A stretch of 64,000 nucleotides of DNA from Plantibacter elymi (nom. nud.) (GTDB lineage: Bacteria > Actinomycetota > Actinomycetes > Actinomycetales > Microbacteriaceae): positions 62,001-126,000 of the forward strand of contig NZ_FXWJ01000006.1 in NCBI RefSeq assembly GCF_900177795.1, given 5' to 3'. The notes beneath the pieces are model-generated. The model worked only from the letters and a program-made list of their open reading frames with translations, did no database searches and was not told the DNA's origin. Below are positions 12,435-56,999 of this stretch, piece by piece (the stretch's first letter is position 1; each line of letters begins with the position of its first letter). Made by a program: the position numbers and the translations under genes.

Positions 12435-12555
12435 GCCCTTCGACAGGCTCAGGGACCGAATCGTCCGTTCGGCACTGGGCCGCACCCTCCGGTCACTGGG
12501 CCGCACCCTCCGGTCACTGAGCCCCACCCTCCGGTCACTGAGCTTGTCGAAGTGC
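12435..12555. repeat. Family B repeat cluster with 21-bp tandem units
   Basis: It starts CCCTTCGACAGGCTCAGGGACC and ends with the inverted partner CACTGAGCTTGTCGAAGTG. Between them are three tandem 21-bp units of the form GGGCCGCACCCTCCGGTCACT. The right end overlaps the last codons of the SRPBCC gene. Confidence 0.75.
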
Positions 12556-13008
12556 AGCAGCCAGCCACCGGTTCCGCGACTCGATGAGCCGTCGCAGGTG
12601 CCGGGTGAGCGCGACGTGTTCGGCCACGACGCCGAGCGGACCGAACGGCGCTGCGAACGTGACGTCGTCGAGCATGATGGTCCGCGCCGTCCCCATCGGG
12701 CGCTCGAGTGGTTCGAAGAGGTGGACGTGGCGGAATGTCCGGAACGGACCGGACACCTGCTCGTCGGTGAACCGGTGGGGTTCCTCGAACGCGGTGATCC
12801 GACTCGTCATCGTCCACGGCACACCGAAGTGCTTCGCCCGCCAGGTGACGGTCTCACCGAGACCGATGAGGCCGGAGGTCACGCCGCCGACTGCCTGTTC
12901 ACCGGTGTCGGCCATCGATCCGAGGTGGGCGTCGATCGACCGCGAGAGGTCGAAGGCCTGCTGCATCGTCCCGGAGAGCTCGGTGCGGAGGCGGAAGTGG
13001 GCGGTCAT
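12535..13008 (-). CDS. SRPBCC (polyketide cyclase-like) protein with repeat-derived C-terminus
   Basis: A 157-residue START/SRPBCC-fold protein: [13 protein letters not shown] start, [34 protein letters not shown] and the long C-terminal helix [19 protein letters not shown] that closes the cavity. It probably binds a hydrophobic ligand; no substrate can be named. The last residues LRQAQ and the stop codon are encoded by a family B repeat (CACTTCGACAAGCTCAGTGA). The start is 12 bp after the stop of the upstream trhO gene, so the two are probably co-transcribed. Confidence 0.78.
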
Positions 13009-18442: not shown

Positions 18443-18904
18443 TCAGCCGCGGGCGAGTGCCTCGAAGGTCTCGTGGAGGAGCGGCTCGGCCGTCTCCCAC
18501 GTCGTGTCCGTGTCCCAGTCACCGAGGTCGGTGACCTCGGTGTGGCGGCCGGCCTGGTGCTTCGGCTCGGGATCGCCCGGGAGTCGCAGCCGCTGGGTGA
18601 ACCCTCCGGTCGTCCGGTCGAAGTCGAGCACGTGGAAGGCGACGTTCCGGTTCCAGTCCTCGGACGGCCACGAGATGAAGTTCACGCGCACCCGCTCCGC
18701 GGACAGTGGCCCCTCGGCGACGTAACTGCCGGGGTGGTCCTCGCCCGGCGACAGGATGCGGTACGCACCGTTCGAGCAATAGAGCAGCAGGGCCGGCACG
18801 AACGGCTTCTCCGCGAACAGCTCGGTGTAGTGGAGCGCCTCGGCTCGGACGACGTCGCCGAACAGGAGCGGGGTCCGTGGTGCCCCAGGGGTGTGGTTCG
18901 GCAT
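18443..18904 (-). CDS. Hypothetical protein
   Basis: A 153-residue soluble protein starting [19 protein letters not shown], chosen because AAGGAG lies 8 bp before this ATG while the upstream part of the frame is not protein-like. It contains [34 protein letters not shown] and [14 protein letters not shown], aromatic-rich beta-type segments. No catalytic motif or known family is recognised. It is convergent with the XRE gene and divergent from prpD, with a 263-bp gap to prpD in which I see no gene. Confidence 0.6.
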
Positions 18905-19167: not shown

Positions 19168-20727
19168 GTGATCCAGCACCACCTGCGCGTCCACCGCAGT
19201 GACGAGAACCTCGCCCGCGAAGGACAGCTCGCCTGGCAGCTCGCCCGCGTCGCGACCGATCCGGTGGAGGTGACGCCCGAGGTCGTCGACATGATCATCA
19301 ACCGGGTGATCGACAACGCCGCCGTCGCAGCCGCCTCGCTCACGCGCCGACCCGTCTCCTCGGCTCGCGCCCAGGCGCTCAGCCACCCCGTCAGCACCGG
19401 CGGCGACGGTGCCACGGTGTTCGGGCCCGACCTCGCCCGCCGCGTCTCCCCGGAATGGGCCGCCTGGGCCAACGGCGTCGCCGTGCGTGAGCTCGACTTC
19501 CACGACACCTTCCTCGCCGCCGAGTACTCGCACCCGGGCGACAACATCCCGCCCATCGTCGCGGTGGCCCAGCACGTCGGCTGCACGGGCGCCGACCTCG
19601 TCCGCGGGATCGCGACCGGCTACGAGATCCAGATCGACCTCGCGAAGGCGATCAGCCTGCACCGACACAAGATCGACCATGTCGCACACCTCGGCCCGAG
19701 CGCCGCGGCCGGGATCGGCACGATGCTCGGACTCGATCAGGCCACCATCCACCAGGCGATCGGCCAGGCACTCCACACCACGACGGCCACCCGCCAGTCG
19801 CGCAAGGGCGAGATCTCCACCTGGAAGGCGCACGCTCCCGCGTTCGCCGGCAAGATGGCGGTCGAGGCCGTCGACCGGGCGATGCGCGGCGAGACCAGCC
19901 CGTCACCCATCTACGAGGGCGAGGACGGCGTGGTCGCCTGGCTGCTCGACGGCCCCGACGCCTCCTACGACGTCCCGTTGCCCGGCGCCGGTGAGCCGAA
20001 GCTCGCGATCCTCGACTCCTTCACGAAGGAGCACTCGGCCGAGTACCAGGCGCAGGCGTGGATCGACCTCGCCCGCAAGCTGCACCACGAGCACCCGGAC
20101 CTCTTCGCCCCTCGACACGCGGATCCTGAGCTTGTCGAAGGGCAGGGACCGCAGGTGGACCGGATCGTCCTCCACACCTCGCACCACACGCACTACGTCA
20201 TCGGCTCCGGCGCGAACGACCCGCAGAAGTACGATCCGACGGCGTCGCGCGAGACGCTCGACCACTCCATCCCCTACATCGTCGCGGTGGCGTTGCAGGA
20301 CGGCGCGTGGCACCACGTCGACTCCTACCGTCCCGAACGCGCCACCCGCGCCGACACCGTCGAGCTGTGGCACCGGATCTCGACGGCGGAGGACGCTGAG
20401 TGGACGCGCCGCTACCACTCGCTCGACCCGGCCGAACAGGCGTTCGGTGGCCGCATCGAGATCACGCTCACGGACGGGTCGACCATCGTCGACGAGATCG
20501 CCGTCGCCGACGCCCACCCGCTCGGCGCCCGTCCGTTCGCGCGCGCCGACTACGTCCACAAGTTCCGCACGCTCGCCGCCGACGTCCTCGACCCGGAGGA
20601 GATCGAGCGTTTCCTCGCGCTCGCCGAACGCCTCCCGGAGCTCGACGCCGACGAGGTCAGGCAGCTGAGCATCCAGGCCGCCTCCGGGGTCCTCGCCTCG
20701 GCACCCCACCCGACCGGCCTGTTCTGA
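19168..20727 (+). CDS. prpD: 2-methylcitrate dehydratase PrpD with repeat-derived insertion
   Basis: A 519-residue MmgE/PrpD-family enzyme that dehydrates 2-methylcitrate in the methylcitrate cycle. Typical parts are [21 protein letters not shown], here recognised by its core [27 protein letters not shown], and [18 protein letters not shown] with [13 protein letters not shown]. Around residues 316-327 the sequence [12 protein letters not shown] is encoded by a family B repeat and looks like an insertion of about 13 residues in a variable loop. GTG start with AAAGGAAC upstream. prpB follows after 31 bp. Confidence 0.92.
20125..20147. repeat. Family B repeat inside prpD
   Basis: CCTGAGCTTGTCGAAGGGC followed by AGGG is the family B unit in the reverse orientation. 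It is read in frame as PELVEGQ. Confidence 0.75.
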
Positions 20728-21693: not shown

Positions 21694-21715
21694 CTCCCCG
21701 AGCTTGTCGAGGGGC
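21694..21715. repeat. Family B repeat between prpB and prpC
   Basis: CTCCCCGAGCTTGTCGAGGGGC is a family B unit with compensating changes (CCCCGAG/CTCGGGG-type) that keep its symmetry. It lies in the 123-bp prpB-prpC gap. Confidence 0.65.
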
Positions 21716-36762: not shown

Positions 36763-36790
36763 GTCGGGCCGGTCTCGAAGTCCCTTCCCC

Positions 36791-36813
36791 GGTCCCTGAG
36801 CTTGTCGAAGGGC
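36791..36813. repeat. Family B repeat between putA and a GntR gene
   Basis: GGTCCCTGAGCTTGTCGAAGGGC, a complete unit between convergent stops (60 bp gap). Confidence 0.75.
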
Positions 36814-51722: not shown

Positions 51723-52673
<951 letters not shown>

Positions 52674-52676
52674 TCG

Positions 52677-52959
52677 GCACTTCGACGGGCTCAGTGACTG
52701 ATATCCAGCCCCTGAGCCTGTCGAAGGGCGGGTGTGCTCGTGTGCACTTCGACAAGCTCAGTGACCGGGGCTGGCTCAGTGGCTGCTACCCCGGTCCCTG
52801 AGCCTGTCGAAGGGCGGGTGTGCTCGTGTGCACTTCGACAAGCTCAGTGACCGGAGCTGGCTCAGTGGCCGGGGCTGGCTCAGTGACCGGAGCTGGCTCA
52901 GTGACCGGGGCTGGCTCAGTGACCGGGTCGCCGGCGCTTTCTGAGCCTGTCGAGGGGCT
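52677..52959. repeat. Large family B repeat array
   Basis: The whole 298-bp gap between the hydrolase and rhaI stops, with no gene in it. It contains at least six family B units in both orientations, a direct duplication of about 59 bp (52710-52768 and 52796-52854, each starting CCCTGAGCCTGTCGAAGGGC), and just over four tandem 18-bp units CTCAGTGACCGGRGCTGG (52843-52926). Confidence 0.85.
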
Positions 52960-52971
52960 CGGCCTTGCCGC

Positions 52972-54138
52972 TTACGCGCCCCAGCTCGCCTGGGTCCCGC
53001 CGACGCGCTCCTCGGCGATCTGCTGCTGGTAGCCCGAGGCCAGGTAGGCGCCGAACGGGTCGGCCGGCAGGCCGCGGCTCTCGCGCCAGGCGGCGAGCGG
53101 CCCTCGGACGTCGGTGTAGAACGCGTCCATGAGGATGCCGTTCGCGCCGAGGACGTCGCCGGCCTCCTGTGCCGTGGTCAGTGCATCGCGGTCGACGAGC
53201 AGTGCGCGCGCGGTCATCTCCTGCACGTTCAGCACCGAGCGGATCTGCCCGGGGATCTTGTCCTCCACGTTGTGGCACTGGTCGAGCATGAACGCGACCG
53301 GCGAGTCGTCGTCGAGGCCGCCGCCGCGGACGACCTCGTAGAGGATCCGGAACAGCTGGAACGGGTCGGCTGCACCCACGATGAGGTCGTCGTCGGCGTA
53401 GAAGCGCGAGTTGAAGTCGAACGAGCCGAGCTTGCCGAGGCGCAGGAGCTGGGCGACGATGAACTCGATGTTGGTGCCCGGCGCGTGGTGGCCGGTGTCG
53501 AGGCAGACGAGGGCCTGGTCGCCGAGCTGGGCCACCTGGGCGTAGGACGTTCCCCAGTCGGGGACGTCGGTGTGATAGAACGCCGGCTCGAAGAACTTGT
53601 ACTCGAGCACGAGTCGCTGCTCCTCGCCGAGGCGGGCGTAGATCTGCTGGAGCGAGTCGGCCAGGCGGTCCTGCCGGCCGCGGATGTCCTGCTGGCCCGG
53701 GTAGTTGCTGCCGTCGGCGAGCCAGATCTTGAGGTCCTGCGAGCCGGTCGCGTGCATGACGTCGATACAGGCGAAGTGGTGGTCGATCGCCTTCTGACGG
53801 ATCACCGGGTTGCTGTGCGTCAGGCTGCCGAACTTGTAGTCCTCGTCCTGGAAGGTGTTCGAGTTGATGGTGCCGAGCGCGACGCCGTGGTCCTCGGCGT
53901 AGGTGCGGAGGGCGCTGAAGTCGTCCACGAGGTCCCACGGGATGTGGAGTGCGACCTTCGGCGCGAGGGCGGTGAACTCGTGCACCTTGGCGGCGTCGGC
54001 GATCTTCTCTTCCGGCGTCCGGGGGGTGCCGGGCGTCGTGAACACCTTGAATCGGGTGCCGGAGTTGCCGAACGCCCAGGAGGGGAGTTCGATGGCCTGC
54101 TTCTCGAGCAGGGGGGTGATGGTGTCGAAACTGGTCAT
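52972..54138 (-). CDS. rhaI: L-rhamnose isomerase
   Basis: A 388-residue TIM-barrel isomerase of the RhaI type found in Actinobacteria and Pseudomonas, converting L-rhamnose to L-rhamnulose. Metal-ligand segments are visible in VALHIPWDLVDDF, LVLEYKFFEPAFYHTDVPDWG, CLDTGHHAPGTNIEF and LGSFDFNSRFYADDDL. ATG start at 54138 with GAAGTGACC upstream. rhaM lies 82 bp upstream in the same direction, and a LacI-type palindrome lies between. Its downstream side is the family B array. Confidence 0.92.
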   Translation of the reverse strand: MTSFDTITPLLEKQAIELPSWAFGNSGTRFKVFTTPGTPRTPEEKIADAAKVHEFTALAPKVALHIPWDLVDDFSALRTYAEDHGVALGTINSNTFQDEDYKFGSLTHSNPVIRQKAIDHHFACIDVMHATGSQDLKIWLADGSNYPGQQDIRGRQDRLADSLQQIYARLGEEQRLVLEYKFFEPAFYHTDVPDWGTSYAQVAQLGDQALVCLDTGHHAPGTNIEFIVAQLLRLGKLGSFDFNSRFYADDDLIVGAADPFQLFRILYEVVRGGGLDDDSPVAFMLDQCHNVEDKIPGQIRSVLNVQEMTARALLVDRDALTTAQEAGDVLGANGILMDAFYTDVRGPLAAWRESRGLPADPFGAYLASGYQQQIAEERVGGTQASWGA

Positions 54139-56108: not shown

Positions 56109-56978
56109 TCAGGGGAGCTGCGCCGAGTAGCCCTCGCGGTAGGTGGGGTAGCGGTAGGTGAATCCGGTGTCGCGGAGCGCGGCCGCCGTGATGCGCTTGC
56201 CGCGATGATGTTCGTCCGGTGTGCGACCGGCGTCGTCGAGCGTCGGGGGAGCGACGCCGAGTCGATCGGCGAGGAAGTCGGCGACCGTCGACAGCAGGAC
56301 CGGCTCCTGGTCGATGCCCGCCACGACCGGCGGGAGCGATGCCGCCGGCAGGCCGAGGAGGTGCACGATCACGGCCGCAGCGTCGTCACGGTGGATGCGA
56401 TTGGTCCAGCCGGAGGGCCGGGTGACGCGGCCGTCGCGGACCTGGTCGACGAACATCGTGGACGTCGGACCGTAGAGGCCGCCGAAGCGGATGGCGCTCG
56501 CCTCGGGCACCGCGGTGAGGACGGCCTCCTCCGCGGCGAGCAGGGCGCGTGCGGTGCCGGTGGTCGGGACGGCCGGCGTGGTGTCGTCGATCGTCTCCCC
56601 GCCGTCCTCGCCCCACACCGCGGTCGAGGAGACGAACAGGATGCGGGGCGGGGTGCCGGGGAGCGCGGCGACCGCGCTCAGAAGACGCCCGACACCGTCG
56701 CGGTAGAGGGCGTCATAGGCCTCGACCGAGCGTGCCCCCGGTGCAAGGGTCACCACGATCGCGGTCGTGTCCGCAGGAAGGTCGGGGGCGGAGGTGGTGA
56801 GGTCGCAGAGCTGGAGGGTGAAGCGCCCCTCGACAAGCTCGGGGACCGGGTTCGGCTCAGGGATCGGGTTCGACTCGGGTGCCGTGCGCTTCACGCCGAC
56901 GACGTCGTCGCCGCGAGTGAGCAGCCTCCCGGCGACATCCGAGCCGAGCTGTCCGAGTCCCACGATCACGACGGTCAT
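56109..56978 (-). CDS. NAD(P)-dependent oxidoreductase (YeeZ-like epimerase family) with repeat-derived insertion
   Basis: A 289-residue atypical SDR: TVVIVGLGQLGSDVAGRLL, FVSSTAVWGEDGGE, and IRFGGLYGPTSTM with HRDDAAAVIVHLL. It resembles the YeeZ group of NAD-dependent epimerase-like proteins of unknown substrate. Residues about 31-51 (SNPIPEPNPVPELVEG) are encoded by a family B repeat and lie in the loop between the NAD motif and the next strand, about 18 residues longer than expected. ATG at 56978 after GGTGGGTGG. Upstream, a family C element separates it from the DNA repair gene. Confidence 0.82.
   Translation of the reverse strand: MTVVIVGLGQLGSDVAGRLLTRGDDVVGVKRTAPESNPIPEPNPVPELVEGRFTLQLCDLTTSAPDLPADTTAIVVTLAPGARSVEAYDALYRDGVGRLLSAVAALPGTPPRILFVSSTAVWGEDGGETIDDTTPAVPTTGTARALLAAEEAVLTAVPEASAIRFGGLYGPTSTMFVDQVRDGRVTRPSGWTNRIHRDDAAAVIVHLLGLPAASLPPVVAGIDQEPVLLSTVADFLADRLGVAPPTLDDAGRTPDEHHRGKRITAAALRDTGFTYRYPTYREGYSAQLP
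56824..56890. repeat. Family B repeat inside an oxidoreductase gene
   Basis: CGCCCCTCGACAAGCTCGGGGACC followed by two short GGGTTCGRCTCRGGG-like units. It reads in frame (minus strand) as PNPVPELVEGRF. Confidence 0.75.
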
Positions 56979-56999
56979 CCACCCACCGTACCTATTCAT

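Follow-up and report, generated by a model that had tools for sequence, protein, structure and literature searches.

Over 80 species are described by Di Nocera et al. (2013, PMC3733652) as carrying GTAG or CGTC REPs, some of the copies being intragenic. The GTAG REPs are presented there as dispersed hairpins that are mostly intergenic, often arranged in opposite pairs and in some cases intragenic, and that are associated with RAYT transposases; the ends of their units may supply stop codons. The CGTC REPs, in the same account, carry a CGTC (or TGTC/CCTC) tag, a CCA tail and A-T at the first two stem positions, are known to have intragenic copies, and have no known dedicated transposase. The same source mentions the Rickettsia palindromic elements (e.g., RPE-1, RPE-4 and RPE-6 of R. 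conorii), short palindromes located within protein genes, and the recB genes of Xanthomonas campestris and X. oryzae, in which roughly the same site is occupied by different REPs; the word actinobacteria is absent from its main text.

The repeat analyzed here, a copy of which lies within prpD (2-methylcitrate dehydratase) in the window (the whole stretch of 64,000 nucleotides of Plantibacter elymi that was analyzed), resembles the RPEs described in that paper in being a short palindromic unit inside protein genes, but it differs in sequence (the RPEs end in CGTC) and in host group, and 13 of the 225 copies counted here are internal to predicted genes. As with the RPEs, the insertion is in frame, and prpD appears, from the selection acting on its sequence, to have stayed functional. 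With the GTAG REPs, as portrayed in the same text, the repeat has in common short dispersed hairpin units that are mainly intergenic, form opposite pairs and are occasionally intragenic, but its unit ends in CCGGTC and GC, without GTAG, and Y1_Tnp is found in 0 of 7 genomes of the genus. Intragenic copies are also a likeness to the CGTC REPs, for which the source gives no dedicated transposase; the unit nevertheless lacks the CGTC tag, its ends being CCGGTC and GC, and the first stem positions are mostly not A-T in the profile of 112 copies. The case of Xanthomonas recB, as reported there, is similar in that different inserts occupy about one site of a gene, although it involves two species of one genus whereas several genera are involved here. 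Given that in-frame palindromic inserts are already known among RPEs and GTAG and CGTC REPs, the repeat is best described as a new family with known behavior. The prpD case is an ordinary in-frame REP-like insertion, and the unusual part is the repeated hits in one loop. A search of the open-licence PMC literature found neither a Microbacteriaceae family of this kind nor the reuse of one loop across genera, which is no proof of absence, and nothing relevant was found there for the unit strings and the encoded peptides.

The reading that we favor, with a probability of about 0.9, is that the helix-to-strand loop of PrpD has received an insertion of a REP-like unit, mobile or copied, that is abundant in some of the Microbacteriaceae. 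The repeat is REP-like, with about 500 copies in the source genome (G000): the exact core, CTGAGCYTGTCGAAG, occurs 517 times in this genome, 380 copies are found in the assembly with at most one mismatch compared to 0 for reversed controls, and the window contains 15 matches with at most two mismatches compared to 0.02 expected from shuffled sequences. Alignment of 112 copies (462,895 bases of G000, at most two mismatches, a few chance matches possibly included) yields a consensus unit with sharp borders, CCGGTC[C/A]CTGAGC[Y]TGTCGAAG[G/T]GC, which is 25 nt long and not 19 nt as first annotated. The unit is short, high in copy number and mostly intergenic, with 198 of 225 copies (at most one mismatch) located outside the predicted genes of seven genus genomes in which the coding fraction is 0.878. 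Stem pair -1/15 is C-G in 77 of the 112 copies, A-T in 25, G-C in one and another combination in 9, and has the highest mutual information among the pairs examined; two positions further in, pair 1/13 is T-A in 94 copies, C-G in 7 and T-G in 5. The compensatory outer pairs thus back the stem by covariation, though the stem is short. The predicted folding of a single unit (-4.1 kcal/mol, z 0.78) does not exceed that of shuffled sequences; where two units lie in opposite orientation, at 52705-52775, the energy is -40.7 kcal/mol (z -4.27).

The family has a patchy distribution. Among 150 Microbacteriaceae genomes, 25 contain a match and 125 none; 86 to 400 copies are present in seven of the 150, three of these seven belonging to the genus of G000. 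In a phylum-wide sample of 149 genomes, 10 besides G000 contain matches, each with at most two copies. Several arrangements of units were observed in passing. Positions 52641-53000 of the window contain tandem pairs of units in opposite orientation and, after them, half-unit repeats at intervals of about 19-20 nt, and G000 contains unit arrays with a spacing of mostly about 118-143 nt (C3:310964-311755, C6:488320-488859 and C5:387008-387413). At 21697-21713, between the two ORFs next after prpD, there is a variant unit whose stem is compensated, and G001, G002, G003 and G006 likewise have this variant.

The identity of the host gene is supported by matches of G000 PrpD to both Pfam domains, MmgE_PrpD_N and MmgE_PrpD_C, and to the NCBIfam profile PrpD_hiGCgrampos, which covers residues 1-519 with a score of 849.5 bits, below the curated cut-off of 950. 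Outside the loop, prpD is under strong purifying selection: dN/dS is 0.01-0.07 in six comparisons of filled with empty orthologues, and G000 and G006 differ by 32 synonymous changes and 1 nonsynonymous change. This conservation of the enzyme agrees with the suggestion of the first-pass annotation that the element can be tolerated in coding sequence when it keeps the frame. An AlphaFold2 model of moderate quality (mean pLDDT 75.1, from 41 sequences) contains a helix at residues 280-308 and a strand at residues 330-337. The pLDDT is below 50 at residues 317-326, between the helix and the strand, which places the insert in a connection that is poorly ordered; the prediction bears out the annotated location in a loop preceding a conserved segment, with a strand following the loop. 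The fold of the model matches the IRG1/PrpD structures 6r6u (Z 31.6, rmsd 3.3, 426 residues aligned) and 6s62 (Z 29.5, rmsd 4.9, 446 residues aligned).

The repeat in prpD was first annotated at 20125-20147. The exact sequence CCTGAGCTTGTCGAAGG is indeed present at 20125-20141 on the forward strand, in frame, and encodes PELVEG, but the insert is larger than first noted, extending from about 20107 to 20151, and consists of two units, with a forward unit nested in the middle of a reverse one (Table 1). The inverted arms of the insert are complementary at 9 of 10 positions in G000 and at 10 of 10 in G002, and a structure of -19.9 kcal/mol is predicted for positions 20105-20155 of the window, so that the insert could be envisaged as an mRNA hairpin with a regulatory role for the prp genes. 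The z-score is only -1.06 for RNA and -1.11 for DNA, no clear improvement over shuffles, the arms of G000 contain a mismatch, and G001 carries a single unit only, all of which make such a regulatory hairpin quite improbable.

Table 1. Position of the prpD insert, its parts and the other features compared (coordinates of the window unless a genome and contig are given)
Feature	Position	Strand	Remarks
prpD, 2-methylcitrate dehydratase, host gene of the insert; internal unit	19168..20727	+	519 aa; Pfam, NCBIfam, purifying selection outside the loop
Outer reverse unit, left part GCCCCTCGACA	20107..20117	-	G001 has an uninterrupted unit here, 24/25 to consensus
Inner forward unit GCGGATCCTGAGCTTGTCGAAGGGC	20119..20143	+	encodes (A)DPELVEG; 22/25 to consensus
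Outer reverse unit, right part CAGGGACCG	20143..20151	-	base 20143 common with the inner unit
Inverted arms, possible hairpin	20108-20117 and 20133-20142 (span 20108..20142)	.	not clearly better than shuffles
Unit copy with the consensus sequence, for comparison	36789..36813	+	outside predicted genes
GH3 glycosidase (internal unit after the N-terminal domain) and ABC transporter ATPase with NIL domain (internal unit in the tail)	G000:C1:44501-46126 and 231845-233068	-	loci L177, L183
Circularly permuted ATP-grasp protein			internal unit in the tail
Small protein in G001			internal unit

All seven genus genomes encode prpD, with the loop filled in four and empty in three. The protein is 519 aa long in G000, G002 and G005, 512 aa in G001, and 507 aa in G003, G004 and G006; the longer loop described in the first-pass annotation is therefore real, with an excess of 12 and not about 13 residues. 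The empty loops, which read HPE(V/L)L(V/L)PG(A/V)VDR, lack PELVEG, as the annotation had anticipated for an alignment of related proteins, and since their length is that of most loops in other genera, the empty state is probably ancestral. G001 has a single reverse unit that matches the consensus at 24 of 25 positions, reads LRQAQG and adds 5 residues. In G000, G002 and G005, the center of a G001-type outer unit is replaced by a forward unit, for a total of 12 added residues; these nested inserts differ from one another by 1-2 bases and have common departures from the consensus, and so have one origin.

These comparisons also bear on the possibility that PELVEG is an ordinary part of the PrpD loop that resembles the repeat by chance. 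Many PrpDs read HPEL at this place, superficially like PEL, but the residues are missing from the three empty orthologues, whose proteins are 96.6-98.8% identical to that of G000; empty sites resemble the unit no more than random DNA does (P 0.15-0.92, nine sites); and the inserts of G001 and of L139, a locus from another genus, match the 25-nt unit at 24 positions. Repeat-less close relatives with the same residues were looked for and not found, and a fortuitous resemblance is accordingly hardly credible.

With insertion of a REP-like unit retained as the explanation, its history within the genus can be outlined. In a tree of 94 sequences built with the loop removed, the G005 prpD has the empty prpD of G004 as its closest neighbor, so that the pattern of filled and empty loops conflicts with the prpD tree and calls for recombination or repeated events; the conflict is likely to stem from recombination of alleles between species or from ancestral polymorphism. 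The prpD DNA is 97-98% identical across five close genomes. The reverse unit would have come first (the state seen in G001), a second unit would then have entered, or been copied into, the center of the first (G000, G002 and G005), and alleles might subsequently have been exchanged between species by recombination. The four filled genomes contain 517, 390, 583 and 367 exact cores and the three empty ones 226, 163 and 263, an excess that is in line with insertion pressure, seven genomes only being compared. With empty, single and nested alleles that are unusually clear-cut in close genomes, the steps from a non-coding repeat to protein become readable, and testable, in one enzyme.

The same loop has been hit in other lineages. 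PrpD loci were read in three sets, which may overlap: 80 loci; 30 from the 318 of 398 genomes with a PrpD match; and 30 more from genomes picked for known copies (16) or as members of copy-bearing genera (14). In the first set, two of the 80 loci have a unit in the loop and 78 do not; the two belong to Microbacterium yannicii (L023, VLRQAQQPGSEV) and Microbacterium sp. T2.11-28 (L029, SLRQAQGPGGSE), each matching the consensus at 21 of 25 positions. The second set contains five loci with a unit, namely four members of the genus and L139 (G043, another genus), which has a forward unit (24/25) that reads VPELVEG. In the third set, no unit is found in the loop in any of the 30 loci, including those of G144, G076, G138 and G027, genomes with 86 to 373 copies, and the PrpD loops are empty in the examined members of the repeat-rich genera g22, g71 and g77. 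In the loop-stripped tree, the nearest relatives of L023, L029 and L139 (L020, L069 and L170, respectively) are all empty, and the inserts of the three loci differ from the G000 insert in flank or orientation. M. yannicii has 182 exact cores compared to 12 and 13 in L020 and L024, and G144, with 373 copies, has a repeat-poor relative in G082, with 31. The T2.11-28 genome has only 2, so its loop insert may be an older remnant. L042 (Microbacterium sp. cf046), considered as a decayed third Microbacterium insert, was dropped as it matches the unit at 14 of 25 positions.

The presence of an insert in one loop in four lineages, with three in the LRQAQ frame and one reading PELVEG, could be taken to mean that the extension was selected for changing PrpD. 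The inserts are, however, unlike in sequence, orientation and length (+15, +18 and +36), and the loop is modeled with low confidence, so that an adaptive extension seems unlikely.

The net gain in the prpD loop is 15 nt in G001 and L029, 18 nt in L023 and L139, and 36 nt in the nested alleles. As the unit itself is 25 nt long, gains of 15 or 18 nt imply that the target gave up about 7 to 10 nt, by replacement or loss. Other simple single-unit sites show net gains of 13 to 26 nt (e.g., 13, 15, 18, 20, 24 and 26), and because the difference between filled and empty sites is not a clean 25 nt, the borders of the insertions are uncertain. No target-site duplication is seen at the filled and empty sites compared, and no microhomology between the unit and the empty target stands out at nine sites (P 0.15-0.92). 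The Y1 transposase (Y1_Tnp, PF01797) was detected in none of the seven genus genomes and in none of 12 other genomes, 8 of which bear the repeat, in a search whose controls were positive in 5 of 14 cases; a Y1/RAYT enzyme was therefore rejected as the mover, and the unit is probably copied by something else. How REP-like units spread in genomes that lack a RAYT is a question to which this family draws attention. At one intergenic site, different unit inserts are present in G003 (80332-80388), G004 (18699-18723) and G005 (20508-20596; all three in coordinates of joined stretches), and the site is empty in others.

The loop could also be a physical target, with a sequence or structure recognized by the insertion machinery, beyond mere tolerance of inserts. 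Four lineages have been hit within a few codons, and the intergenic site just described has received different inserts in three genomes. In rough terms, G000 has 4 internal copies over about 0.4 Mb of coding sequence, which corresponds to about 3e-4 for each 30-nt loop in a genome, so that only about 0.04 hits are expected over about 130 loops, even with the G000 load in every genome and an even spread. Yet empty sites have no similarity to the unit, the loops are empty in the examined members of other repeat-rich genera, and if inserts are tolerated at only 1-2% of coding positions, tolerance alone can yield the observed number. The data are compatible with both explanations and cannot separate them; target preference can be put forward only tentatively. 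Recurrent hits in one loop would allow the two to be told apart.

Units inside genes were counted in 1,242,895 bases of the seven genus genomes, with genes predicted by a codon-usage finder. At a coding fraction of 0.878, 27 of the 225 units (at most one mismatch) fall within predicted genes: 8 overlap a stop codon (LRQAQ* or variants), 6 are among the first 15 residues, a region in which the predicted start may be wrong, and 13 are internal, in five genes (Table 1), although these are not 13 events because the stretches compared are partly orthologous. When two mismatches are allowed, 14 of 112 units lie in predicted genes; several of the two-mismatch matches look like chance, which is why the main count was kept to one mismatch. 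Besides prpD, four genes have an in-frame unit inside. For two of these, the ATP-grasp protein and the small protein of G001, orthologues without the unit exist; the GH3 and ABC orthologues examined are of different lengths, and each contains the unit or a variant of it. Units would reach coding DNA just as they reach non-coding DNA, with most of the coding insertions removed by selection and the survivors found in frame in loops, linkers and tails.

Half-units are also present, with 90 lone left halves and 13 lone right halves, an asymmetry that is partly one of definition given the looser search pattern for left halves. The most frequent distance between consecutive left halves is 18-21 nt, and in G000 a spacing of 18 nt within the GH3 and ABC genes encodes PVPERS/PVPERP and PVPEPx repeats; these proline-rich stretches end in PELVEG or PEPVEG, encoded by a full unit. 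The sequences can be read as repeat DNA that expanded into proline-rich linkers in these two genes, and the lengths of the linkers vary between species. A broader scenario, in which a RAYT-less REP-like family of Microbacteriaceae repeatedly enters one enzyme loop, builds (PVPEPx)n linkers by 18-nt expansion of left halves, and is moved by a machinery with preferred sites, is possible but rather doubtful; if true, new loops and linkers would arise from the family time and again.

Two further genes in the window contain units. At 12535-13008, on the reverse strand, a unit overlaps the 3' end of a gene and supplies its stop codon (LRQAQ*), and six relatives in the genus likewise have the unit or a variant there. 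In a predicted NAD-dependent epimerase (56109-56999), a two-mismatch unit at 56827-56843 on the reverse strand encodes PELVEG at residue 53 and may be a further in-gene insert.
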